Program-made: the position numbers and the translations under genes
Notes under the pieces: model-generated
Told to the model about the DNA's origin: nothing
The model's input: the letters and a program-made list of their open reading frames with translations, nothing else
Databases searched by the model: none
Part shown: piece by piece, positions 39,729 to 52,517 of the stretch
How the letters are laid out: every line of letters starts with the position of its first letter
How positions within the stretch are numbered: position 1 is the first letter of the stretch
Assembly (NCBI GenBank): GCA_020723305.1
Contig: DYJC01000001.1
Location: 1-64,000 of the forward strand
Source of the DNA: Desulfosudis oleivorans
GTDB lineage: Bacteria; Desulfobacterota; Desulfobacteria; Desulfobacterales; SURF-7
Direction of reading: 5' to 3'
Length of the DNA stretch: 64,000 nucleotides

Positions 39729-40478
39729 ATGATTGTCAGCTTTGTACAAACAAAAGGTGGAACCGGGAAAAGCACTCTGGCACTGAACACAGCATTCTCC
39801 CGGCAGATTCAAAAACAGTTTCAATCCATTGCGCTGGTGGAACTGGATCCCCAGGGAAGCCTGAAAAACTGGTGGATACAAAGAGAGGAAGAAGGACGCG
39901 ATACGGAAAAGGTATCTTTTCACCATATCTCCAGCACACAAAAAGCGGTTTTTCAAAGCGGCATTACCGCCATTGCAGAACATAATGAGTTGATCATCAT
40001 GGACATCCCGGGAGAAAGCACCGGAAAACTCCATACCCGATTTGCCTGCGCATCTTCGGATCTCGTGATTATCCCCATGCGTACATCAACCAATGATGAA
40101 CTGGCCTTTGCAGACAACCTGTATCCGATTATCCGGGAAATCACTAACATCGCCCCTGAAAAACGAAAAACATTTCATGTGCTGCCGTCCTTTACTCATC
40201 CGCAATCCAATAATAAAAAGATCCTTGAATATTTTTCAGACATTCTTCCCAGCCATCTGCAATGCATGGAGGTTGTATATCCACATCGATCGGTCTACGA
40301 AAACTTTAACCGGGACGGTATGAACCTTTCGGAATATGCTTTATCGGTCGAACAGAACAAACGAAATGCCGTTCAGGCATCACGGGCGGTTATGGATATT
40401 GAAGAAATTTCAAAAAACATCATTGATTTACTGGAGAAAAACAATGGCGGTGCCAAGAAAAAGAAAAAAACTCGATGA
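39729..40478 (+). CDS. ParA/MinD-type partition ATPase
   Basis: A 249-aa ATPase. The deviant Walker A is KGGTGKSTLA, the A' region is VELDPQGSLKNW, and Walker B is LIIMDIPGESTG. It resembles VirC1/ParA-like orphans rather than chromosomal Soj. CAGGAA precedes the ATG. A second gene overlaps its 3' end by 35 bases, which is a typical ParA plus partner layout, although the partner is not a recognisable ParB. Whether it positions DNA or a protein complex is open. Confidence 0.88.
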   Translation: MIVSFVQTKGGTGKSTLALNTAFSRQIQKQFQSIALVELDPQGSLKNWWIQREEEGRDTEKVSFHHISSTQKAVFQSGITAIAEHNELIIMDIPGESTGKLHTRFACASSDLVIIPMRTSTNDELAFADNLYPIIREITNIAPEKRKTFHVLPSFTHPQSNNKKILEYFSDILPSHLQCMEVVYPHRSVYENFNRDGMNLSEYALSVEQNKRNAVQASRAVMDIEEISKNIIDLLEKNNGGAKKKKKTR

Positions 40479-40896
40479 AACAGCGAAGGAACTGAAGAAA
40501 AAGGGTTCAACGCCGAAACACCAAAGACATGCGATCAAGACAGAAGAGGCATTGTCCCGAAACACTTCAAAAAAAATTGATACTGCCTTTGAAATTATGG
40601 ATCATATTCAAGAGGAAACATCGACCCATATCCCATCCGATCAAAAAAGAACATCCGGTCCGGTGGATTCAAAAAAATTCCGTTCAAAAAAAGAACGTAC
40701 CGGATTTCGATTTCACATTTCACTGGATGCGGTCATGCCTGAAAAAACAACAGACAGCCGAAGCAGATCCATGCTTCCCGTCAACGAATCATCGATACTG
40801 GATATCGGACTCACCATACCCTTTTTCTGGAAGATGCCCATTATTGGTAAAATCGTTCAAAAAGTCATCCGGAACATGAAAACAGTAAAATTGTAA
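40444..40896 (+). CDS. Basic protein coupled to the ParA-like ATPase (150 aa)
   Basis: Starts inside the ParA-like gene (ATG 40444 after CTGGAG) and overlaps it by 35 bases. The N-terminal half is very lysine/arginine-rich and probably disordered (VPRKRKKLDETAKELKKKGS). The C-terminal 50 residues hold a hydrophobic stretch (ILDIGLTIPFFWKMPIIGKIV). Unrecognised. The position suggests an adaptor for the ATPase, perhaps DNA- or membrane-binding. Confidence 0.7.
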   Translation: MAVPRKRKKLDETAKELKKKGSTPKHQRHAIKTEEALSRNTSKKIDTAFEIMDHIQEETSTHIPSDQKRTSGPVDSKKFRSKKERTGFRFHISLDAVMPEKTTDSRSRSMLPVNESSILDIGLTIPFFWKMPIIGKIVQKVIRNMKTVKL

Positions 40897-41001: not shown

Positions 41002-42723
41002 TCATGCGATATCCGCTATATCGGTATTATACGACCAATCCCCCCAGACCTTTTCAACAATCTGCATGACAATCGGATTGATATACTCTTCAGCCGCTTT
41101 TCCATATAAGAGATCAATATGGTTGGCGCCTTCAATGATGAAATCCACCAGAAGGCTCTCTTCCTGGGGAATTTCTATTTTTTTCAGATCCTTGACAGAT
41201 TGAATATGGTACGTCTGCTTATAACGATGAGGATACAGTTCACTGTACCGCACATTGTCAACAGAAGCGAGATTATCTGCGGTTCCCCAGAAATGGAATA
41301 CCGGTATGTTATCCGGGAACAAGGAAAACAATTCAGAATAATTCAGACGGCTGGCATCCATTCGTTTAAATCCCCTGCCATCATAAATCGCTTTGAGACA
41401 TTGAAAACCCAGCCCAAGAGGAATCGATTCTGTTGCAACCTGTAAGTACTTTTCAATGAAATATTTATCATCCTTATGGTTTTCCGGTGAGATCAGAAAA
41501 TTCAAATCCCCGACGTTGTAATTGGATAAAACCCTTACAAAATCCTTCAGGAATGGAATCCCGGTAATCGCTTTTGAGATTTCCTGGATCGGTACGTGTT
41601 TGAGGCGGAATATCCTGGACAAGTGGTTGAACCACAATACGATGGGGAAAAAAAGATGTGATTTTCGATTGAAAAATTTCGGAGAACCAAGGGAAATCAC
41701 TCCTCGAATGGTTTTTAAATATTGTGATGTTTCAATCAGGGGAGGCAGGATCTGATTTAAAACACTTTTTTGTTTTTCAGTTAATATATCAATATCATCC
41801 AGATGCTCTCGAAGAGACCAGTTCAGGATCATATTTTCAGATACCACCCCTCCCATACTATGCCCAAGGAGAATGGTGGGTTTTCCATGGCTGCGTGCGT
41901 AAATGAATTGGACCACGGTGGCCAGATCATAATCAATCATTGAATCAATGGTGTAATACGGATCAAACCGGCCCTCATTCACCCCTACCCCTCGAGGATC
42001 AAAGAGATATACCCAGAAACCCATATCTGCTAAATCCTTGGCCATGGAATACCGGTTATTGATATTAAAACAGTTGCTGTTGTTGGCAAACCCCGGAACC
42101 AGTGTGAGGGCCGGCCTGTTATCGTTTGCAGTTACATCTTCCATGCTGACCAGCCGACGAAAACCGATCTCTTTTCCTTCCTCGGTAAAATCCCGATAAT
42201 AGACAATCTCATAATTCCCACGGCCATTCTGTTCCAATTCTTCGATTTCACTTTCAAAATAAGCAGGCATCCTGTCCGCTTTCAGGGACTCTTTCAGTAT
42301 CCGACGCCGTCCGGCCTCCATCAGGATATTGGGTAAAAAATCCTGGGAAATCTTAAACCGCTGCTGTACCAGATGATTCAGATCAATCTGATTTAACAGG
42401 ATCACATTTTCCGTCATCCGTAATCGTTGCTTCTCCAGTTCGTCAATAATAACCAGTTTGATCTGGTCGCGGGGTATTCTGATGCCTGTTGCACGCAGGA
42501 TGATATGATACAGCGCAAGAGCCAGTTTTCCGACAGCGCTGTTCCGGATCTCTTCCTGGCTTACAACAAGCTCCTTGGAAACAGGTAATCCAAGAGTGAT
42601 CTGCCCTTTATAGATCCTGCTGTAAGTATTATAACTGGCATTGATTATATTTGTGGGTACACCATTGACCACAAAACGCAAAATGGATTTACTTGCGTTT
42701 TGAAGCTTTTTTACTGCTTTCAT
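41002..42723 (-). CDS. Large alpha/beta hydrolase (lipase/esterase-like) of the storage-lipid operon
   Basis: A 573-aa protein. The first 190 residues are helical and unrecognised. The hydrolase core follows: LTLVPGFANNSNCFN (oxyanion), YLFDPRGVGVNEG, the nucleophile elbow LLGHSMGGVVSE, a late Asp region FHFWGTADNLAS, and the catalytic His in IEGANHIDLLYG. The elbow Ser distinguishes it from PHA synthases, which use Cys, though the size and core are similar. It starts 35 bases inside the end of the upstream reductase-like gene, so it is coupled to the WS/DGAT operon. Likely roles are lipid-ester mobilisation or acyl transfer. Confidence 0.82.
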   Translation of the reverse strand: MKAVKKLQNASKSILRFVVNGVPTNIINASYNTYSRIYKGQITLGLPVSKELVVSQEEIRNSAVGKLALALYHIILRATGIRIPRDQIKLVIIDELEKQRLRMTENVILLNQIDLNHLVQQRFKISQDFLPNILMEAGRRRILKESLKADRMPAYFESEIEELEQNGRGNYEIVYYRDFTEEGKEIGFRRLVSMEDVTANDNRPALTLVPGFANNSNCFNINNRYSMAKDLADMGFWVYLFDPRGVGVNEGRFDPYYTIDSMIDYDLATVVQFIYARSHGKPTILLGHSMGGVVSENMILNWSLREHLDDIDILTEKQKSVLNQILPPLIETSQYLKTIRGVISLGSPKFFNRKSHLFFPIVLWFNHLSRIFRLKHVPIQEISKAITGIPFLKDFVRVLSNYNVGDLNFLISPENHKDDKYFIEKYLQVATESIPLGLGFQCLKAIYDGRGFKRMDASRLNYSELFSLFPDNIPVFHFWGTADNLASVDNVRYSELYPHRYKQTYHIQSVKDLKKIEIPQEESLLVDFIIEGANHIDLLYGKAAEEYINPIVMQIVEKVWGDWSYNTDIADIA

Positions 42724-44776
42724 CTTTCTTAAATTCCTTTACTGCTAATGCTTTAACCCTATTAATATGTTCATCGCTGATCACACCGCTTAAACCGGTT
42801 ATGGCGGCCAGTTCCATGCCGTGCTTTAATCCCAGCCGATAGATCTCCCGTACCTTATCCCATTGAGTATCACTCCCAACAGTGAATGTCTCGAAACGTC
42901 CTTCCAGTGCCAGAATAATGGTTTCTGCAAGCCCTGCATATACCACCTGATCCGGTAAACCGATATCTTTCATTTCAATGTGTTCACCCGGCAGAAGAAT
43001 TTCACCGCTCCGGATAACCAGAATATCCGGTCTTTTTGCGATATCATCCGTTGTAAGACTCATTGGACGGGTGATGTCCGTAACAACGCATCCCGGCTTC
43101 AGTCTCATGATATCCAACACTTTTTTCGCTTCCGAACTTGCAACAACAACCACATCCATATCCCCCAGATGCGTATCTCCTCTGGTTGAAACATGGAGCT
43201 TGACTTGCGGAGCCTCTTCCTCAATAGACTCCTGTAAAGCAAGCAGTTTGGCCATATTCTTGCTGACAATATATACTTCTTCGAAAGCCGTTGCGAGTAG
43301 CCGTGAGCAGATGGAGCCCACTGCACCCGTAGCCCCGATAACCATTGTTTTCGCTTTCAATTTTTTATTGTCTGTCAACCGGGCCAGCCCCATTCTACGG
43401 ACAGCCTCTGCAGCAGCCCAAAGAGCCGTCGATGCAACATAGCTGTTGCCGGTTGTTATGGGAAGAACCGCGTGTTTCGCAACTTCGATGCTTGAATCTT
43501 TCATGGCCTTGGGCAGCATTCCAATCCCCATGATCTGTGCCCCCAATTTCTTTGCCATGACTGCAGCCTGCAATATCCGCTTGGTCGTGAACTCAGGAGT
43601 ATGGGCCTGCATCTGCTCCGGTGTCTCTCCCAATGCAATAAGCCACCCTTCCGCCTCTACCCCTGTTTTTGATTTGATGCCGGTGACTTTAGAATAAACA
43701 AAAGGTGGTGAATAAGCCATTACCTTTTCCACGGTATTCATGGTAATGGGTGCAAAATCAGACACCATTTCAACCGCTTTTATTTTCTTTAAATAATCCT
43801 GAGTAAGCGGATATACAATATAAGCAAATCGATTGATCCGTTTTTTCCTTCCGGACGGATAGATAATCCTCGGTTCCATCTGCATATCCGTAATGATTTC
43901 AAGCAAATCATCATCACTACCCTCTTGCTGAGGAATATTCATTGCAGAGAACAGTAGCGCTTCAGATATACTTACACCAACCACTCTATCCAATATTTTT
44001 GGCGTGGTATCAATAATAACAGTCACCCCTTTATCTCTCAGATATTTTACCCTGTCTTCATATGCCGTGGATGTGATGACGATTTTCCCTTCCAGATCTT
44101 CCGAGGTAAAGCCATCCAGATATTGAAAAAAATTAAAATGCGGAACGACGAGAACATGCGCCTGTTTCAGGGCATTGCGCAACAGGAATTCATTTGTTTT
44201 TTTCACAGGAGATGATTCTGTAACAATCTTTTTTCCAGGAATCCATTTCAGTACATCATGTACCCTATTGGCATACAGTTCAAGCTCTTTGATGGAACCG
44301 ATCAGACGGGGCACCCCATCCTTCAGCAGCGGATCAGCAAACTGCAAATTGTCCGTATATTCCGATATCACCGTTGCAACTCTTGAATCCACCATGCCGG
44401 AAAAAAACAAAACCCGTGCATTGTTAAAATAGTTGTTGCCGTGAATGAACTGAGTATGACGGATTGTCCACTCATGACCGACACTTCGAAGGATATTGCC
44501 GCTTGTAACCGGTGTCTGAATCTGTTTACCGATCTTCAATAAATCCCGTGTTGCTTTATCCGGTATGGATCCGGAACCAATTTCATAAGGAAAACTGATC
44601 CCTCCCAAACCAATTGCATCTGCTTTCTTGTTCCAGGACAAAATTAAATCCGCAGCTTGCTCAAAATCACCATCTGTGCCGATTCGCTTCAGTAAAAACT
44701 TCTGATTTAAAAAAGTGGTTTTAAATTCATAATCATCCTGACTGGTCCCTAAACTGATGTTGATAATCTGCCTCAT
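42689..44776 (-). CDS. AAR-like two-domain dehydrogenase, paralogue B (catalytic Cys replaced by Gly)
   Basis: A 695-aa protein, paralogous over its full length to the gene just upstream. The N-terminal half (1-370) is an unrecognised alpha/beta region. The C-terminal half resembles cyanobacterial acyl-ACP reductase (AAR): PITTGNSYVAST, the NAD(P) site VIGATGAVGSICSRLL (about 479-494), VVTDITRPMSL, and LAETIILALEG. In AAR the catalytic cysteine lies just before this last motif (F/YACxAE). Here that position is Gly615 (VVYAGLAE), whereas the paralogue has Cys614. So nucleotide binding looks intact but thioester chemistry is doubtful. It may be a structural or regulatory partner. Its 3' end overlaps the hydrolase gene by 35 bases. 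Confidence 0.8.
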   Translation of the reverse strand: MRQIINISLGTSQDDYEFKTTFLNQKFLLKRIGTDGDFEQAADLILSWNKKADAIGLGGISFPYEIGSGSIPDKATRDLLKIGKQIQTPVTSGNILRSVGHEWTIRHTQFIHGNNYFNNARVLFFSGMVDSRVATVISEYTDNLQFADPLLKDGVPRLIGSIKELELYANRVHDVLKWIPGKKIVTESSPVKKTNEFLLRNALKQAHVLVVPHFNFFQYLDGFTSEDLEGKIVITSTAYEDRVKYLRDKGVTVIIDTTPKILDRVVGVSISEALLFSAMNIPQQEGSDDDLLEIITDMQMEPRIIYPSGRKKRINRFAYIVYPLTQDYLKKIKAVEMVSDFAPITMNTVEKVMAYSPPFVYSKVTGIKSKTGVEAEGWLIALGETPEQMQAHTPEFTTKRILQAAVMAKKLGAQIMGIGMLPKAMKDSSIEVAKHAVLPITTGNSYVASTALWAAAEAVRRMGLARLTDNKKLKAKTMVIGATGAVGSICSRLLATAFEEVYIVSKNMAKLLALQESIEEEAPQVKLHVSTRGDTHLGDMDVVVVASSEAKKVLDIMRLKPGCVVTDITRPMSLTTDDIAKRPDILVIRSGEILLPGEHIEMKDIGLPDQVVYAGLAETIILALEGRFETFTVGSDTQWDKVREIYRLGLKHGMELAAITGLSGVISDEHINRVKALAVKEFKKDESSKKASKRK

Positions 44777-44857
44777 GTTAATCTCCTCATGAAACCATTC
44801 ATTCCTGTATGATTCGTTGCGTATCCGAAGCCATTTTTCACATCCTGGATCTTGCTT

Positions 44858-46930
44858 TTATCCACTGACCGCTGCCTGGCCTTTTTTTCTGGCGTCCAGG
44901 GCAAGCTGTTTCACCCTTTGAATATCCTCATCCGTAAATATACCATTGACACCTGAAATTGCGGCCAGTTTCATGCCATGTTTAAGGCCCATTTTATAAA
45001 TCTCCCTTACTTTTTCCCATTCAATATCCCTTCCAATGGTAAAAACTTCATAGCGGCCTTCCAGAGCCAGAACAATTGTCTCGGCAAGACAGGCATAGAC
45101 TATTTTATGAGGCAGTCCGATATTTTTCATTTCCGGATTTCCGGGAAGTTCAATCTCACCGGACTCTATCACCAGAACATCCGGGCGTTTGGCGACATCC
45201 TCCGGAGACAGATCCAGCGGTCTTGCCACATCGGTGATAACGCATCCTGGTTTTGCCTTGGTAATATCCAATACAGTCTTACCCTGCCCGGATGTGGCTG
45301 TAACGATTACATCCATATCCTCAATATACCGGTCCGGCCTGGTCGTAACCTTGATCGTGACACCAGGGGTCTCCTCAAGAATGGATTCTTTCAGGGCCAT
45401 TAATTTGGCGGTATTTCTTCCTACCATATAAACTTCGTTAAATGCTTTTGCCAGAAGACGACAGCAGACCGACCCGATAGCACCGGTGGCCCCAAGCACC
45501 ATTGTTTTTCCAATAATCCTTTTCCCTTTCTCAACTTTTAAAAGCCCCATTCGTCTGACAGCATCTGCTGCTGCCCATAGAGCACCGGAAGCACTGTAAC
45601 TGTTTCCGGTTGTAATCGGGATTTCAGCCCTTTTTGCAACCGTAACACCAGCATCCCCGACCACTTTGGTAAAGGCGCCCAGCCCCATAATCTGAGCCCC
45701 CATTCTTTTGGACATACGAGCCGCCTGCAATAATCGTTTATAGGTAAATTCAGGGTCATGGGCGAGCATCTGTTTTGGTGTACCGCCAACCGTTATCAGC
45801 CATCCTTCCGCTTCAGCCCCCGTCGGCGATTTGATGCCGGTCACTCGCGAATATACCCAGGGCGGTGCATATGCAATCACCTTCTCAACCGCATCTAAAA
45901 ATGCAGGTGGTGTAAAGTTTGACAAAAAGTCAACCGCCTTATCCTTTTTCAAGAACTCCTTGGATAGAGGGTGGATAACAAAGGCAAACCGGTTGATCCG
46001 CTTGGGGTTTCCCGATGGATAAACAACTCTTGGATCCATTTTTTGTGTACGGATAATTTCCAGCAGATCATCTTTTCGAATCTGATCCCGATTTCTTCCA
46101 AGTGCCGCGATAATCAAAGCTTCCAGAACATTTGGAGCAACCACCCTTTCCAAAATTTTGGGTGTTGTATCAATGACGACATTTACGCCCCTTTCTTTCA
46201 GAAACTCAATCCGATCATCATAAGCTGTCGGCGTAATAATCGTTTTACCGCCTAGCTCCTCCAGGGTTGCGTGTTCCAGATAATCGTAAAAATGAAAATG
46301 GGGGACAACGATAACATTCGCCTTTTGCATCGCTTTTTTGACAATATAATCATTCCAGGATTTTAACGGTACGATGGATGAAGAAAGCCGTTTGCTCGGA
46401 ATCCATTGCAGGATTTCATGGACACCACGTGCATAATTTTGTAAGTCTTTTTTGGATCCGATAAATTTGGCAATCCCATTCTCAAAAATCGGATCTGCAA
46501 AAGTCATATTATCGGTAAATTCCGACATCACGTTCACAATTCGGAAATGATCCATTCCGGAAAGAAACAAAACCTTTGCATTATCAAAATAATTACCGAA
46601 CTTATATTGTATAAATCGAAGGCACCATTCAAAGGAAACTTCCCGCAACTCATTTCCGATAGTAACCGGCGTTTCAATCTGTGTGCCAAGTCTCGCCAGC
46701 TTGTCGATATTCTTTTTCTTAAGATATCTGGGGCCTATGCCATACGGCCGAACACCTCCGATCCCGATTGCATCCGCTTTTTTGTCCCACTGCAGAAGCA
46801 TTTCCGCAGCTTTTTCCAGATCGCCATCTGTTCCCAATCGTTTTATGTTAAAATTCTGCCCAAGAAATTCCGTCTCAAACTCATAATCGTTTTTGGTTGC
46901 CCCTAAGCTGATGCTAACAATTTGCTTCAC
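44858..46930 (-). CDS. AAR-like two-domain acyl reductase, paralogue A (catalytic Cys present)
   Basis: A 690-aa protein. Residues 1-370 form an alpha/beta region of unknown family (KVLFLSGMDHFR, VIVVPHFHFYDYLE, VVIDTTPKILERVV). Residues about 370-660 align by motif with cyanobacterial long-chain acyl-ACP reductase: GAEAEGWLIT, IPITTGNSYSASGALWAA, MVLGATGAIGSVCCRLL (NAD(P)-binding, 477-493), VITDVARPLDL, KIVYACLAETIVLALEG with the likely nucleophile Cys614, and MGLKHGMKLA. AAR reduces fatty acyl thioesters to aldehydes. Next to a wax-ester synthase and a ferredoxin, a role in making fatty aldehyde or alcohol is plausible, but it is inferred. The enzymes known in cyanobacteria are about half this length. 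Confidence 0.8.
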   Translation of the reverse strand: MKQIVSISLGATKNDYEFETEFLGQNFNIKRLGTDGDLEKAAEMLLQWDKKADAIGIGGVRPYGIGPRYLKKKNIDKLARLGTQIETPVTIGNELREVSFEWCLRFIQYKFGNYFDNAKVLFLSGMDHFRIVNVMSEFTDNMTFADPIFENGIAKFIGSKKDLQNYARGVHEILQWIPSKRLSSSIVPLKSWNDYIVKKAMQKANVIVVPHFHFYDYLEHATLEELGGKTIITPTAYDDRIEFLKERGVNVVIDTTPKILERVVAPNVLEALIIAALGRNRDQIRKDDLLEIIRTQKMDPRVVYPSGNPKRINRFAFVIHPLSKEFLKKDKAVDFLSNFTPPAFLDAVEKVIAYAPPWVYSRVTGIKSPTGAEAEGWLITVGGTPKQMLAHDPEFTYKRLLQAARMSKRMGAQIMGLGAFTKVVGDAGVTVAKRAEIPITTGNSYSASGALWAAADAVRRMGLLKVEKGKRIIGKTMVLGATGAIGSVCCRLLAKAFNEVYMVGRNTAKLMALKESILEETPGVTIKVTTRPDRYIEDMDVIVTATSGQGKTVLDITKAKPGCVITDVARPLDLSPEDVAKRPDVLVIESGEIELPGNPEMKNIGLPHKIVYACLAETIVLALEGRYEVFTIGRDIEWEKVREIYKMGLKHGMKLAAISGVNGIFTDEDIQRVKQLALDARKKGQAAVSG

Positions 46931-46993
46931 GATTTCCTCCTATGATTCCATTGGAAAGTGATACGATTTCAAATTGGCCTTATGAAAAATAAT

Positions 46994-47239
46994 CTACTCC
47001 GGAATGCCATCATTCCAGATGGCATTCACAGGACAAATCTCCATAGCCTCCATACATAATGTCTCTTCCATGCTTGTAGTAGGCTGTTTGCAGACATATT
47101 CATAACCTTCTTCCAGATCTGAACAAAAATTCGTTGGTGCAATTTCCGCACAGACGCTGCAACCGATGCAACGGATATCAATATAATATTTTCCGGGGAC
47201 ATTATTTGCGACCTTTAATGTTTTATCCGGTTGGATCAT
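46994..47239 (-). CDS. Small single-cluster ferredoxin
   Basis: An 81-aa ferredoxin. CIGCSVC (Cys24, 27, 30) and the distant Cys69 in ICPVNAIW bind one [4Fe-4S] cluster. Cys39, Cys50 and Cys62 are extra, and a pair may form a disulfide as in other monocluster ferredoxins. It sits between the small membrane protein and the acyl-reductase-like genes, so it may supply electrons to that pathway. Spacing to its neighbours is 15 and 63 bases. Confidence 0.9.
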   Translation of the reverse strand: MIQPDKTLKVANNVPGKYYIDIRCIGCSVCAEIAPTNFCSDLEEGYEYVCKQPTTSMEETLCMEAMEICPVNAIWNDGIPE

Positions 47240-47254
47240 TTACTTAATACCTTT

Positions 47255-47491
47255 TTACAATATCAATTGTTCATGATCACGAAAAGAGGAACATCCCTTT
47301 TTCTTTCCGGAGCGATAGTCCAGAAAAATCAACAAAATAAAGGGCAATTCCAGGATAAATTCAAATACAAATCCTGCGACAATGGCCAATAACATTAACG
47401 GCAGCTTTACAAGAGTGAAGTAAACCTTTGAAAATCTTGCCTTCAGGATATCATAAACCATCCGTATATCTTCAGGAACAGAAGGTTTCAT
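47255..47491 (-). CDS. Small membrane protein of the storage-lipid operon (78 aa)
   Basis: One long hydrophobic stretch (residues 25-57) is probably one or two membrane helices, with a basic C-terminal tail (DYRSGKKKGCSSFRD). The ATG overlaps the WS/DGAT stop by four bases, so it is translationally coupled. Unrecognised. Location suggests it helps dock the synthase or lipid body at the membrane. Confidence 0.75.
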   Translation of the reverse strand: MKPSVPEDIRMVYDILKARFSKVYFTLVKLPLMLLAIVAGFVFEFILELPFILLIFLDYRSGKKKGCSSFRDHEQLIL

Positions 47492-49164
47492 GAAATTAAT
47501 TCCTTCATCAGCTGAACAACATCTTTGATCTGACTATCCTCTTCCGTGTAATCCGAATGCATCTTGCAATATCCGGATCCTGACACGGCTTTGTTTCTGC
47601 ATTTTTTCCCGCTTCTGGTGACTGCCCTGCATCGATCACTTGTTTCTTCCGAATCTTCAAGGGAACCCTTTTCTTCCAGATGTTTTGCAGCATCCTGTGC
47701 TTCCTTATACCGGTCATGCAATACAAGAGGTTCATCATAGATCTTTCCGGTTTGAACCAGCTCCAATAGATAATTGAATTCCTCTTCAATTCCTTCCAAT
47801 AATATTTCAGGATCCGGCATCAGTTTTTCATCAGAAGCGATTCCGACGGTAACCTTTCCATCATAGCTTAATATACTGATTCCAAGACCGACTTTCCCGG
47901 ATCGGGGAACCCAGAACATGAGATTGTCAATCCTGCTGCCGGCAAAATAGAGAGGCGTCTTTGGGCCAGGGACATTGGTCATCACTCCGGAGGCCTTATT
48001 CGCGAACAGATGAGCTGCCTTTTTTGCAATGCCCGGCGGGAAGTACCCAATGGAATTCAGCAAGACAAAATTGATATAGGGATCTGGTGAATTCTTTAAA
48101 GAATCCATACGCCGTTTCACTTCTTTCAAGCGAAGAACCGGATCTTCAAGATACACGGGCAAGGCGAGAAACACTAGGCTGAACTTGTTGCCCAACTCAA
48201 ACTCGGTGCCTGGTTTTCGTATATTTACAGGGATCGCTACTCTAAGATCCAGTTCATTCACTGCCACATGTCTGGTCTTAAGGTAGCGACGCATTGCCCC
48301 GGTCACCGTTGCAACGAGGACATCATTCAGGGTTGTCGTGCTGATTGCACGGCCAACTGTTTTTATCTGGCTCAGTTCCATGGGGTCGGTCCAGGCGACC
48401 AGTTTCCGTACACCCAGTTGCCCCTTGAAAGGAGTGTTGGGATCGGAACTCATGATTGTATGTTTGGACAGAACCTTGGTAAAATCAGTTGGAAAACGAC
48501 CGGTGGTTTTAATAATTTTTTTTCGATACTCGGGATTGGAAACGACCTTCTCCAACTCTTTGGCTATTTGTTTACCAACTTTTTGTGATGCTTTCAAACC
48601 AATGCCGACTGACTCGGACATTACCCGGAAAGATAAGGATTGGGCAATGTTCCTGGATCGTTTCTTCTTTTTATCAGATCTGCTTTCCGGCCAGGGCGCA
48701 TCCGGATCTGTATCTGCGGCAGCAAGTAAAACATACATCAACCCGATTCCATCTCCAATCGCATGATGAATTCGAAAAAAGATTACGCATCCATCACCAT
48801 AATTTTCAATCAGGTGAACCTGCCACAGGGGTTTATTGAGATCTAACGGCATCATTGCCAGGTTGCTGATCATCTCCTGAAGATCTTTTTTATCACCTGG
48901 TGATGGTAATGCAATACGCTGAACATGGGACCGGAGATCGTAATTTGGATCCATCTCCCAGTTTGGCAGACCCACTCCGGATTTTGGCCTGACAGCCCGC
49001 ATCTGAAACCGCGGGAAAGACGCAAGGCGACTGTCAATGGTAGCCTGAAGACGTTTGAAATCAACCGATTCTTTAAACTCCATGAAGGCGGTAATCACCA
49101 TCAGGTTAGTGGGTTCATCCATGCACAACCAGAAATTATCTGCATTTGTCATTCTTTCTGCCAT
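47488..49164 (-). CDS. Wax ester synthase/diacylglycerol acyltransferase (WS/DGAT) with C-terminal zinc-motif tail
   Basis: A 558-aa WS/DGAT enzyme. The active-site motif HHxxxDG is HHAIGDG (His133, His134, Asp138). PLW is at 112-114, LNDVLVATVTGAMRRYL supplies the ND motif, and NVPGPKTPLYFAGSRI is near the C-terminal half, all standard for bacterial WS/DGAT, which joins acyl-CoA to fatty alcohols or diacylglycerol. Beyond the usual end, residues 512-536 form Cys-x9-Cys-x10-Cys-x2-His (CRAVTRSGKKC...YCKMH), matching the small DUF5763-type zinc motif, then a helix. It heads the minus-strand operon. Its start lies 243 bases from the divergent phasin-like gene, sharing the region with the dyad operator. 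Confidence 0.92.
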   Translation of the reverse strand: MAERMTNADNFWLCMDEPTNLMVITAFMEFKESVDFKRLQATIDSRLASFPRFQMRAVRPKSGVGLPNWEMDPNYDLRSHVQRIALPSPGDKKDLQEMISNLAMMPLDLNKPLWQVHLIENYGDGCVIFFRIHHAIGDGIGLMYVLLAAADTDPDAPWPESRSDKKKKRSRNIAQSLSFRVMSESVGIGLKASQKVGKQIAKELEKVVSNPEYRKKIIKTTGRFPTDFTKVLSKHTIMSSDPNTPFKGQLGVRKLVAWTDPMELSQIKTVGRAISTTTLNDVLVATVTGAMRRYLKTRHVAVNELDLRVAIPVNIRKPGTEFELGNKFSLVFLALPVYLEDPVLRLKEVKRRMDSLKNSPDPYINFVLLNSIGYFPPGIAKKAAHLFANKASGVMTNVPGPKTPLYFAGSRIDNLMFWVPRSGKVGLGISILSYDGKVTVGIASDEKLMPDPEILLEGIEEEFNYLLELVQTGKIYDEPLVLHDRYKEAQDAAKHLEEKGSLEDSEETSDRCRAVTRSGKKCRNKAVSGSGYCKMHSDYTEEDSQIKDVVQLMKELIS

Positions 49165-49280: not shown

Positions 49281-49309
49281 TTGACATCCATAACGCACTG
49301 CGTCATATT
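49281..49309 (+). promoter_or_regulatory. Candidate promoter of the phasin-like gene
   Basis: TTGACA at 49281-49286 and CATATT at 49304-49309, 17-bp spacer. The spacer and the -10 region are covered by the left arm of the dyad at 49287-49336. Confidence 0.6.
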
Positions 49310-49336
49310 CCAAACCATGACGCAGTGCGTTATGGA
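49287..49336. promoter_or_regulatory. Perfect 19-bp dyad, likely operator between WS/DGAT and phasin-like genes
   Basis: TCCATAACGCACTGCGTCA (49287-49305) and its exact reverse complement TGACGCAGTGCGTTATGGA (49318-49336), 12-base spacer. Each arm itself contains the palindrome ACGCA-C/G-TGCGT, centre to centre 27 bp, so this is two operators arranged in mirror image, one between -35 and -10, one just past the expected start site. Binding would block transcription. The PhaR-type regulators downstream are the obvious candidates for binding it. Confidence 0.8.
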
Positions 49337-49406: not shown

Positions 49407-50075
49407 ATGACTACAAAAAATGCAAACAAAAAGGCAACCGGCAAAAAAACAACTCGAAAATCCAAATTCCATACTGTGAATGTGGTTAAAGATGTAAAAA
49501 ACAGCTTGTCCGATACGGTTAAGGAAATCAATCAAAAATTGATTCAAAAACCAATTCGAAACGGGAAAGATTTCATTAAGGATCTTCAAAAGAACCCTCG
49601 CAAAACAATTGACAGCCTGATTGACGACAGCAAAGAATTTATTGAAGATACCACAAAGGACGCCCGGAAAAAAATTGATGCATATGTGAAAGACGGGAAA
49701 ACTTTTGCAAAGAAGGCCCAAAAAAATCCGCGCAAAACAATTACCAGCCTGTTTGATGATGGCAAGGATTATATCAAGGATTTAAAGACAGATACACAGA
49801 AAAAAGTGGACACCTATTTTGAAGACGGAAAAGAGCTTTTCCAGAAAGTTGAGAAAGACGCTCGTCTTATCGTTGAGGAACTTCTGGAAACCGGTAAAAA
49901 ATCCATTGATAAAATTCCAGGCAAAAAATCCATTGAGATCAACCTTGAAAAACGTGTTAAATCAATTCCCAACACATTGAATCTGCCGAGCAAAAAAGAT
50001 ATCGAGAATTTGAATCAAAGCATGAAGGCCCTGAATAAAAAGGTTGAAACCTTACGTGCCCAGTATGCTGCATAA
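49407..50075 (+). CDS. Phasin-like, lysine-rich granule-associated protein
   Basis: A 222-aa, very lysine-rich, helical protein with no signal peptide. After a basic N-terminus (KKATGKKTTRKSK) it has degenerate repeats of about 35 residues: KNPRKTIDSLIDDSKEFI, KNPRKTITSLFDDGKDYI, and weaker copies with DGKTFAKKA and DGKELFQKV. It ends in LNLPSKKDIENLNQSMKALNKKVETL, the coiled-coil tail seen in PHA granule proteins and shared with both PhaR-like proteins downstream. A phasin coats storage granules, and a DNA-binding basic tail as in PhaF is also possible. AGGAGG precedes the ATG. The operator dyad lies just upstream. Confidence 0.78.
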   Translation: MTTKNANKKATGKKTTRKSKFHTVNVVKDVKNSLSDTVKEINQKLIQKPIRNGKDFIKDLQKNPRKTIDSLIDDSKEFIEDTTKDARKKIDAYVKDGKTFAKKAQKNPRKTITSLFDDGKDYIKDLKTDTQKKVDTYFEDGKELFQKVEKDARLIVEELLETGKKSIDKIPGKKSIEINLEKRVKSIPNTLNLPSKKDIENLNQSMKALNKKVETLRAQYAA

Positions 50076-50259: not shown

Positions 50260-50787
50260 ATGTTAACAATCAAACAATACGCAAACGGCCGGTATTTTGA
50301 TGAAGTAAATAAAAAATATATTACGAAAGAGGATCTTGCAAAACTCTTTGCAAAAAAGACAAAAGTGAAAATCATTTCCAGCAAAGATGGCAGGGATATT
50401 ACGAAAACAACCATCAGTCATGCATCGAAACCACAGAAAACCGAAAAAAAGACCACTAAAAGGCAAAATGTCCTCAAGAAGTGGATGGAAGACAATAAAA
50501 AATGGATTCGCGATAACATGGATGAACGGATCAATAAGATTTTAAGTGCAATGAATCTTGCCACCAAGGAACAGGTGAAAAAACTGACCGCCGGCATGGA
50601 TGCACTGAATGACAAGGTAAATGAATTGGAAAAAAACCAGGCCAAAAGAGCAAAAGAAATGGAGCGGAAGCACATCGAGAAGATTAAAGAAATGGAAAAG
50701 ATACAGTCTCACAAGGTTCAACAGGCTGAAAAAGAACAGGCACCGGAAATCGAAGACATGGAAGTTTCCCAAGAGACTGTATTATAG
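50260..50787 (+). CDS. PhaR-type regulator, paralogue 1
   Basis: A 175-aa protein. Residues 1-50 match the PHB/PHA accumulation regulator DNA-binding domain (KQYANGRYFDEVNKKYITKEDLAKL). The middle is lysine-rich (KPQKTEKKTTKRQN). WIRDNMDERINKILSAMNLATKEQVKKLTAGMD leads into a long charged coiled coil. It is shorter than classical PhaR and its second domain is replaced by the phasin-like tail. PhaR proteins repress phasin genes and are released when granules appear. It sits between the phasin-like gene and a second paralogue, each in its own transcription unit judging by the gaps and terminator. Confidence 0.82.
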   Translation: MLTIKQYANGRYFDEVNKKYITKEDLAKLFAKKTKVKIISSKDGRDITKTTISHASKPQKTEKKTTKRQNVLKKWMEDNKKWIRDNMDERINKILSAMNLATKEQVKKLTAGMDALNDKVNELEKNQAKRAKEMERKHIEKIKEMEKIQSHKVQQAEKEQAPEIEDMEVSQETVL

Positions 50788-51077: not shown

Positions 51078-51641
51078 ATGCATAAAGTGAAAAAATATGC
51101 CAATCGGAAAATGTATGACACGACAGATAAAAAATACATATCCATGGATAGCCTTGCAAAACTGATCAAATCCGGCAAAGAGGTTTGCATTATCGATAAT
51201 AAAACCGGTGAAGATCTCACCACATCGATTGTCTCACAACTGATTGCCCGGGATAAAAACAGTCAAGACAAGGTCATCTCATCCAAGGTACTAATGGATC
51301 TTCTCCGGAAAGGTGGTGATACCCTGAGCGATTATGCCAAAAAGTATGTCTCCCTCTGGCAGGGTGCCTTAACCATGGCAGAGGATGAAGTTGATAAACT
51401 GGTGACGCTTCTGGTCAAAGACAAGGAACTTTCCAGATCCGAAGGAAGAAACCTGAAAAATGAGATTATCGGTTATACGGACTCCTTAAAGACCTGGATT
51501 CGGGAAAGTATTGACAGGCAGATAAGCGAAGTTCTCGGTGTGATGAACCTGGCCTCCAAAGATCAGGTAGAAGACCTTGCAACTAAAATTGATCATTTAA
51601 CCAAAAAAATGGAAAAATTTGAACGATCGAAAAAAAAATAA
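51078..51641 (+). CDS. phaR: PhaR-type regulator, paralogue 2
   Basis: A 187-aa protein. The N-terminal domain is close to the PhaR consensus: VKKYANRKMYDTTDKKYISM, LAKLIKSGKEVCIIDNKTGEDLTTSIV. A PHB-accumulation second domain follows (VLMDLLRKGGDTLSDYAKKYV), then a helical phasin-like section and the tail VMNLASKDQVEDLATKIDHLTKKMEKFE. It is probably the granule-sensing repressor of this locus. AGGAGAG precedes the ATG. A MITE-like copy starts 48 bases after its stop. Confidence 0.88.
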   Translation: MHKVKKYANRKMYDTTDKKYISMDSLAKLIKSGKEVCIIDNKTGEDLTTSIVSQLIARDKNSQDKVISSKVLMDLLRKGGDTLSDYAKKYVSLWQGALTMAEDEVDKLVTLLVKDKELSRSEGRNLKNEIIGYTDSLKTWIRESIDRQISEVLGVMNLASKDQVEDLATKIDHLTKKMEKFERSKKK

Positions 51642-51866: not shown

Positions 51867-52517
51867 ATGAAAAAATCAGTGACCCCGGATGAATTTATAC
51901 AATTAAAAAGAGCCCTCCAGGCATTTCAATCCAATCGCTTGAATCAAACCTATGCGGATTTAAAAAACAATCCTGAGTACTCAAAAATCGGTGTCTTTTT
52001 CTTTGAAAAACTCTATGCACCAGATGATTTTTCTTTCCGGGATACCAGCATCAAGCAACTGCATAAATTACTCAGAGGGAAAATTTATAAAGGTATCATA
52101 TCTGCGGTAAGCCAGGTAATTGAACTGCACGAGCTGACGGACGAACTGGATGACCGTATGGTTGAACAAATGATACATTTCAATATAGGTACAGAGTTAA
52201 CCATGAAGGAATATCAAAAGGTTTACTGCGGTCTTAATAATTATAATCAGCGAATATATCAGATCCGACTAAGTACCAATGTGACAAAAGCTTTCCATCG
52301 ACTCAGTCAAAAATGGATCGTTGCCGTTTCCTTAAAGACCATCCGTACCGCAGCTCATCTGGTTGGAGTTGGAAAAATTATCGACTTTATTTATGAAGGG
52401 TATGAAGGCTTCAGGGCGATGAAAAATATTGACTACTTTGTTGAAACAATAGAAGAACGGGAAATCGCTTGGCATAATAAAATATGGAGAAAAAACAGCG
52501 TCTTAATTATGGAATAA
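51867..52517 (+). CDS. FFLEELY-motif protein of unknown function
   Basis: A 216-aa helical protein. GVFFFEKLYAPDDFSFRD near residue 40 corresponds to the FFLEELYGPxDFxxRD block that names this uncharacterised family. YADLKNNPEYSKIG precedes it, and the rest is helical with no membrane segment. It lies downstream of the PhaR-type genes, separated by a MITE copy, and may be transcribed with them. No function is known to me. Confidence 0.8.
   Translation: MKKSVTPDEFIQLKRALQAFQSNRLNQTYADLKNNPEYSKIGVFFFEKLYAPDDFSFRDTSIKQLHKLLRGKIYKGIISAVSQVIELHELTDELDDRMVEQMIHFNIGTELTMKEYQKVYCGLNNYNQRIYQIRLSTNVTKAFHRLSQKWIVAVSLKTIRTAAHLVGVGKIIDFIYEGYEGFRAMKNIDYFVETIEEREIAWHNKIWRKNSVLIME

Follow-up and report, generated by a model that had tools for sequence, protein, structure and literature searches.

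Here we describe a cluster of six genes in the first 64,000 nucleotides of contig DYJC01000001.1 from Desulfosudis oleivorans (assembly GCA_020723305.1), a stretch that will be referred to as the window. They encode a wax ester synthase/diacylglycerol acyltransferase (WS/DGAT), a hydrophobic protein of 78 amino acids (aa), a ferredoxin, two reductases related to the acyl-ACP reductase (AAR) of cyanobacteria, named here AAR1 and AAR2, and an alpha/beta hydrolase (Table 1). In agreement with the initial annotation of this DNA, the six open reading frames follow each other in that order, all on the minus strand between 41002 and 49164, either overlapping (4 nt between the WS/DGAT and 78-aa genes, 35 nt between AAR2 and the hydrolase) or closely spaced, with gaps of 15 nt (78-aa gene to ferredoxin), 63 nt (ferredoxin to AAR1) and 81 nt (AAR1 to AAR2). 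Pfam and NCBIfam confirm five of the six proposed gene identities; for the 78-aa protein neither database gives a match. A scan for promoters and terminators was uninformative (24 promoter-like signals versus 18.0, standard deviation 3.8, in shuffled sequences; 7 terminator-like signals versus 9.2, standard deviation 3.1); judging from spacing and conservation, the six genes are probably co-transcribed. The parts are ordinary and it is their assembly that is unusual.

Table 1. Genes and candidate regulatory site of the island, in window coordinates
Feature	Position	Strand	Remarks
WS/DGAT	47488..49164	-	558 aa; TIGR02946, PF03007, PF06974
78-aa hydrophobic protein	47255..47491	-	no family; membrane location guessed by eye
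Single-cluster 4Fe-4S ferredoxin	46994..47239	-	81 aa; PF13370
AAR1, two-module reductase	44858..46930	-	690 aa, GTG start
AAR2, paralogue of AAR1	42689..44776	-	695 aa
Alpha/beta hydrolase	41002..42723	-	573 aa; PF12146, PF00561
Inverted repeat, candidate operator	49287..49336		two ACGCANTGCGT sites, in the region separating the operon from the divergent phasin gene
Phasin-like granule-coat protein	49407..50075	+	PF05597 32.7 bits, cutoff 28.8; divergent from operon
PhaR-like regulator N-domain with phasin-like tail	50260..50787	+	PF07879 38.9 bits, cutoff 25
PhaR-like regulator	51078..51641	+	PF07879 73.8 bits, cutoff 25; TIGR01848 74.2, under cutoff 109.45
FFLEELY-motif protein	51867..52517	+	NF047641 181 bits, cutoff 55; recurrent neighbour, 18/44 loci

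Both reductases had been called AAR-like, a claim that stands for their C-terminal parts (residues ~314-690 only), where the likeness to AAR is found, and that needs correcting for AAR2, which lacks the catalytic Cys. The structural match to AAR, whose absence the initial annotation had named as a refutation, was found in the C-terminal half of AAR1: in a model built from 68 sequences (mean predicted local distance difference test score, pLDDT, 84.7; predicted template modelling score, pTM, 0.82), residues 314-672 superimpose on AAR 6jzq_A with Z 31.3, a root-mean-square deviation (rmsd) of 3.5, 326 aligned residues and 25% identity. Among the matches listed, the TAD domain of carmabin reaches Z 30.0, and dehydrogenases and glutamyl-tRNA reductase (GluTR) follow from 12.2 down; Foldseek agrees (best E 1.2e-19, 6jzu). 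The profile comparison that had also been suggested gave a match to the cyanobacterial model TIGR04058 at 70.0 bits for AAR1 (from residue 351, profile span ~351-655) and 59.2 bits for AAR2, far under the cutoff of 449.7. With chains of 690 and 695 aa instead of a single one of ~340 aa, neither protein was accepted as an equivalog of that model, nor was the whole reductase accepted as an AAR, only the C half corresponding to it.

By sequence, the closest characterised relative is the thioester-reductase domain of PigE, from prodigiosin synthesis: the first 360 positions of its NCBIfam model match AAR1 from residue 314 onwards with 185 bits, and in a profile search against PDB sequences PigE (4ppm) scores 95.9 bits versus 52.3 bits for AAR. 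The predicted conversion of a thioester to an aldehyde, the Cys and the GxxGxxG motif are common to both; the PigE and TamH domains differ in that each is joined to an aminotransferase of class III and serves secondary metabolism, TamH having been likened through its paper alone. The carmabin TAD domain (PDB 9E4S series) has the same fold, and differs in belonging, according to the PDB title, to a large enzyme of the assembly-line type. A frame of the PigE/TamH kind, in which a class III aminotransferase is combined with a weakly matching AAR part, occurs in one of the genomes surveyed (L012:1477-3342, G024), and similar frames of ~980-1000 aa are present in G464, G492, G512, G342 and G526, that of G024 alone having been inspected.

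In the alignments, Cys614 of AAR1 (YACLAET) falls on the Cys of the AAR segment FACFAEA and on the Cys of the corresponding PigE segment, which are taken to be the Cys294 of AAR and the Cys296 of PigE in the literature. In AAR, Cys294 is the acyl site and NADPH the hydride donor (PMC9743570); a matching Cys has been described in PigE (PMC8341465) and TamH (PMC9594044). The segment GATGAIG of AAR1 falls on the nucleotide motif GxxGxxG of AAR. This motif was scored in 62 of the 68 alignment rows, the other 6 being set aside, and is present in all 62. Outside the AAR2 clade the Cys is found in 41 of 42 rows, the exception being a lone AAR-family protein of Desulfonema magnum (L058; YPSLAET, with Ser for Cys) that has no WS/DGAT in its 18-kb stretch. 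Compared with cyanobacterial AAR (TIGR04058; PDB 6JZQ, 6JZU, 6JZY), the proteins described here thus share the fold of the C half, GxxGxxG and, in AAR1, the acyl-site Cys, and differ in their ~690 aa, an extra N-terminal module, an identity of 25%, the pairing of a Cys-bearing with a Cys-less copy, and WS/DGAT and ferredoxin as neighbours.

Related loci were gathered through short peptide patterns, which retrieve close relatives. The 44 loci obtained comprise one from Marinobacter, one from a Nanopelagicales metagenome-assembled genome (MAG) and 42 titled as Desulfobacterales kin, deltaproteobacteria, worm endosymbionts or, for L061, simply Proteobacteria. Counting homologues above 45 bits within the fetched stretches, many of which end at contig ends, AAR1 is present in 44, ferredoxin in 32, WS/DGAT and AAR2 in 29 each, PhaR-like genes in 24, phasin and hydrolase in 23 each, a fusion of an iron alcohol dehydrogenase with an SCP2 domain (ADH-SCP2) in 21, the FFLEELY-motif protein (FFLEE) in 18, a patatin-like lipase in 17 and aldehyde:ferredoxin oxidoreductase (AFOR) in 2. 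Twenty-five loci are 15 kb or longer, and among these WS/DGAT is present in 20, AAR2 in 19, ferredoxin in 18 and ADH-SCP2 in 17. As homologous blocks are present in 44 genome loci, the gene arrangement is not due to chance. The Marinobacter sp. F4216 and Nanopelagicales copies (L062 and L064) are lone AAR-family proteins, 54% identical to AAR1 and with the Cys kept; the Marinobacter protein is 37% identical to AAR1 in the N-terminal module and 68% in the C-terminal one. Horizontal transfer is possible for both, and for the MAG misbinning as well.

The association extends to whole genomes. Among 242 Desulfobacterales genomes, our own included, the AAR family is found in 41, WS/DGAT in 38, both in 35 and neither in 198 (Fisher p 1.8e-32, uncorrected for kinship), and the 35 double-positive genomes belong to 20 families. 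The thresholds were set by ourselves: E <= 1e-70 for AAR, which dropped 5 of 46 matching genomes (G024, G464, G492, G498, G512; frames of ~990 aa are present in four of the five), and E <= 1e-50 for WS/DGAT, which dropped 5 of 43 (G024, G028, G405, G420, G514). Of the 38 WS/DGAT genomes, 36 exceed the family cutoff, G003 and G495 having broken or partial genes. The earlier claim that WS/DGAT and AAR-fold reductases are joined in one operon is thereby borne out as a conserved feature, both in the 44 loci and in the genome-wide co-occurrence. We read the operon as the core of a neutral-lipid granule island of the Desulfobacterales, most likely for wax esters, in which AAR1 is the acyl reductase, and we put the probability of this reading at roughly 70%.

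The WS/DGAT assignment is well founded by sequence and we regard it as genuine, since the protein exceeds the curated cutoff of TIGR02946 (379.3 versus 309.95 bits) and carries the active-site motif HHxxxDG (HHAIGDG at residue 133). The match is full-length, as in other bacterial WS/DGAT, the similarity extends to PDB 7nxg (E 3.9e-32), and no second match exists in the genome (5.4 Mb, 97.87% complete). What differs here is an additional C-terminal tail with Cys and His (residues ~510-540), which bears a sub-cutoff resemblance to HGGxSTG and DUF5763. The 78-aa protein has a homologue in 3 of the 44 loci above 45 bits, a test of low sensitivity at such a short length. The hydrolase has the nucleophile motif GHSMGG, which is shared by 24 of 25 homologue loci and replaced by GHSLGG in the other; in the PDB it finds weak matches only. 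It is a candidate lipase/esterase or thioesterase. PHA (polyhydroxyalkanoate) synthases carry Cys at the nucleophile position where this motif has Ser. Considered as such a synthase, the hydrolase was rejected on account of that Ser and of its PhaC score (16.6 bits versus a cutoff of 365.3).

AAR2 is 57% identical to AAR1 and keeps the nucleotide motif as GATGAVG, as do the 25 AAR2 rows scored. In the tree, obtained by a short search, the AAR2 sequences form one group (26 of 68 rows, SH-aLRT 100) in which the Cys site is occupied by Gly in 25 rows and by Ser in 1. Since there is one such group with Gly/Ser at that site, the tree indicates that a Cys-less paralogue with an intact nucleotide motif arose once, and it was kept close to AAR1: in all 29 loci showing AAR2, it lies no more than 2.3 kb downstream. 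AAR1 and AAR2 are set apart by 13 positions at which each is at least 90% fixed for a different state; one of these is a gap, and F420L, T421P and C614G are among the others. AAR2 as an equal second reductase was discarded, given that the catalytic Cys is absent across the clade. A third AAR-family paralogue, 60% identical to AAR1 and with the Cys present, is encoded elsewhere in the same genome (G000, C3:90388-92439; L002, L086); its neighbours, read by eye, are a glutamine synthetase and a transporter, and the only WS/DGAT of the genome is on another contig.

The single clade, its Gly or Ser at the Cys site with GxxGxxG kept, the 13 fixed differences, the constant position downstream of AAR1 and the lack of an alcohol dehydrogenase in the operon itself would all fit an AAR2 that, lacking the Cys, would be unable to take up an acyl group and would still bind NAD(P)H, thus taking the aldehyde from AAR1 and reducing it to alcohol, the pair amounting to a four-electron reductase. 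AAR and GluTR do pass an aldehyde to a next enzyme (PMC8341465). Nevertheless, 18 of the 29 AAR2 loci also have ADH-SCP2 in the fetched stretch, so that the step is probably covered, and one locus (L054) has WS/DGAT and AAR1 with 8 kb downstream and no AAR2; another (L055) is alike, with 1.5 kb only. We know of no AAR-fold enzyme that reduces a free aldehyde, although none was searched for, and we regard this role for AAR2 as unlikely. Similarly doubtful is a broader version, a four-module fatty acyl reductase in which AAR1 and AAR2 would form a complex with one acylating Cys, AAR2 making the alcohol or channelling the aldehyde to ADH-SCP2, with a dedicated ferredoxin tied in through a mechanism new to the literature. 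If true, this would constitute a further class of alcohol supply for wax esters beside FarA, AcrB, Acr1 and FcrA, centred on anaerobic Desulfobacterales.

For the N-terminal module of AAR1 (residues 1-312), neither Pfam nor NCBIfam gave a match, and nor did a profile search run against the PDB sequences. Modelled alone (pLDDT 87.4, pTM 0.88), the module finds AAR as its best match with VIA-align (Z 13.8, rmsd 4.6, 252 aligned, 12% identity), with malic enzyme next at 11.3 among the matches listed; Foldseek places three periplasmic binding proteins on top and AAR fourth with a similar E-value. Profile comparison of the N and C modules revealed no similarity, and the loop judged equivalent by eye is without GxxGxxG. 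From the models we read it as an AAR-like two-lobed module, the match being modest, which possibly derives from an old internal duplication. Homologues were found on no plasmid and in 2 of 297 genomes of the phylum, few of which are from Desulfobacterales: our own and G115, at 57% identity. A free-standing relative of 318 aa lies near a contig end (L088:5003-5959, G485:C31), where truncation is possible.

The initial annotation saw in the six genes a complete route from acyl thioester to wax ester. This could not be upheld, an alcohol dehydrogenase being among none of them according to Pfam and NCBIfam. In a recent source (PMC11948995), FarA, AcrB, Acr1 and the HMGR-like FcrA are the fatty acyl-CoA reductases given for wax-ester synthesis, AAR is not named, and the fatty aldehyde reductase of the two-step route is called unknown. 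All four resemble the predicted AAR1 in providing alcohol or aldehyde for WS/DGAT; they differ in that FcrA belongs to the HMG-CoA reductase (HMGR) family and Acr1 to the short-chain dehydrogenase/reductase (SDR) family (PMC11948995), and that AcrB matches an SDR model. Neither AAR1 nor AAR2 matches the AcrB profile NF005539 at E <= 0.1 in NCBIfam. AcrB exceeds its cutoff in 6 of the 242 genomes, 2 of them WS-positive, our own included, and the HMGR family in 28, among them 8 of the 38 WS-positive ones; in 27 of the 35 genomes with both AAR and WS/DGAT, over-cutoff AcrB and HMGR/FcrA homologues are both absent, although incomplete genomes may hide some. For the reduction of aldehyde to alcohol, the best candidate is the recurrent ADH-SCP2. 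No ADO, the partner of AAR in the alkane pathway, was met among the neighbours examined with Pfam, a genome-wide search not having been made.

The ferredoxin (PF13370, 57.6 bits) had been proposed as the electron donor of the reductases. Direct drive by ferredoxin would make this an energy-saving anaerobic AAR, and the ferredoxin is in fact the most constant neighbour of AAR1: in each of the 32 loci showing it, including 10 whose fetched stretch has no WS/DGAT, it lies no more than 270 bp upstream of an AAR1-type gene, and the four cluster residues Cys24, 27, 30 and 69 are kept in all 39 homologue rows, although some of these rows come from loci that overlap. However, the hydride of AAR comes from NADPH (PMC9743570), flavin or Fe-S domains were found by Pfam and NCBIfam in neither reductase, and the N-terminal module has no conserved Cys, no column reaching more than 30% Cys in the scored rows, so that a one-electron transfer would have no visible entry point. 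The claim is not supported as it was made, and we consider this scheme highly improbable. Within the wax-ester reading, AFOR gives the ferredoxin a plausible partner: in L057 and L039, genes for ADH, an SCP2-like protein and AFOR directly follow the hydrolase, and adjacent genes for the same three proteins exist on contig C6 of our genome, 72, 80 and 71% identical to the L057 trio, the SCP2-like assignment being made by similarity (no Pfam match at 1e-5). Still, AFOR is present in only 2 of the 44 loci, and the ferredoxin stands beside AAR in 32.

Divergently from the operon, granule-associated genes are found. The phasin-like protein, which exceeds the Pfam cutoff, stays under that of TIGR01837 (37.6 versus 94.7 bits). 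The space between the two transcription units contains a perfect 20-nt inverted repeat with arms at 49287-49306 and 49317-49336 and a 10-nt spacer, and L022 keeps the repeat with matched changes. The palindrome ACGCANTGCGT occurs at 20 sites in 45 related loci, with 0.2 expected and a maximum of 1 in 20 simulations; 16 of them are followed, 46-105 bp downstream, by the projected start of a phasin, PhaR or FFLEE gene, and five of these 16 are also 119-199 bp before a WS/DGAT start. As to the other four, two fall just inside a projected phasin start (L090), one is at a contig start (L029) and one is near no listed gene (L025). The PhaR-like repressor encoded at 51078 is the candidate binder. On the far side of the operon, a ParA/MinD-type ATPase (39729-40478, plus strand) and a small basic protein (40336-40896, plus strand) adjoin the hydrolase. 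Homologues flank the island in no more than 2 of the 45 loci, L022 and L090; the two proteins might conceivably act as a pair in granule positioning.

The presence of phasin and PhaR-type genes beside the operon, together with a PhaC gene in the genome, could also mean that the locus belongs to PHA storage and that WS/DGAT, AAR and hydrolase act around the PHA granule. PHA synthesis uses neither WS/DGAT nor AAR chemistry. Furthermore, the only PhaC_N match of the genome is on another contig, C31, away from phasin and PhaR, and the hydrolase, with its Ser and its low PhaC score, is no substitute. We give this explanation very little credence.

From the calculated families, folds, motifs, conservation, co-occurrence and palindrome, we infer catalytic and regulatory steps, a substrate and a storage product for the wax-ester island as follows. 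Cys614 of AAR1 would accept a long-chain acyl group from acyl-CoA or acyl-ACP, from which the C-terminal module would form a fatty aldehyde at the expense of NAD(P)H. The iron-dependent alcohol dehydrogenase with its SCP2 lipid carrier would convert the aldehyde into an alcohol, which WS/DGAT would join with a second acyl-CoA. Phasin would coat the droplet, the PhaR-like repressor would control the gene set at the palindromes, and the alpha/beta hydrolase would mobilise or edit the ester. For AAR2 and the N-terminal modules, the most likely role is that of partners which are not acylated themselves and hold the substrate or AAR1, and the ferredoxin most likely serves AFOR or another reductant step, not AAR.

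Several observations weigh against this reading. Six genomes have the AAR family without WS/DGAT (G371, G376, G389, G409, G434 and G488; some are incomplete, and G434 has a fragment only), and three have WS/DGAT without the AAR family (G395, G428, G437). In 10 loci, some cut short, ferredoxin and AAR occur without WS/DGAT in the fetched stretch, and six of them (L046, L047, L048, L050, L052, L053) are covered for at least 6.5 kb upstream; AAR therefore also exists independently of a neighbouring wax synthase. The Desulfonema magnum copy with Ser for Cys belongs here too. In our own genome there are an AcrB-type reductase (C6:125341-127296; NF005539 637.9 bits, cutoff 549), a second NAD_binding_4 reductase beside an SDR-like gene (C1:362290-363315, 204 bits) and two HMGR homologues, so that AAR1 is not the sole possible source of alcohol; the broad profile PF07993 has 17 matches in this genome alone. 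As a PHA synthase is encoded elsewhere in the genome, a role in neutral-lipid storage is not compelling for phasin and PhaR. WS/DGAT may make triacylglycerol (TAG), and the palindrome sites are not independent because the loci holding them are kin. In its lipid, expression and enzyme aspects the reading is a prediction.

Some of these points would suit another arrangement, in which the reductases provide fatty aldehyde or alcohol for membrane lipids of the alkyl-ether type, TAG is the product of WS/DGAT, and nothing but co-regulation links the two. Grossi and colleagues are said to have reported in 2015 that mesophilic sulfate reducers make alkyl glycerol ethers, and the 10 loci with ferredoxin and AAR, some cut short, that lack WS/DGAT would agree with it. 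On the other hand, AAR is tightly tied to WS/DGAT (35 of 38 genomes) and to granule genes, and 198 of the 242 genomes have neither, which makes this arrangement rather improbable in our view. The wax-ester island remains the reading we prefer.

According to a survey from 2023 (PMC10351704), synthesis or accumulation of wax esters or TAG was unreported in Deltaproteobacteria, and synteny could not be analysed because the scaffolds with their WS/DGAT genes lacked sufficient length or were too distant. In the open-access literature we found nothing linking Desulfobacterales to wax esters, though reports may exist elsewhere. The island supplies the missing gene context of deltaproteobacterial WS/DGAT, conserved over the order, and points to a predicted acyl reductase, to ADH-SCP2 as the likely aldehyde reductase and to a candidate site of regulation. 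The question of wax esters thereby becomes testable in cultured Desulfobacterales, and the island offers a predicted family of oxygen-independent acyl reductases accompanied by a natural Cys-less twin.

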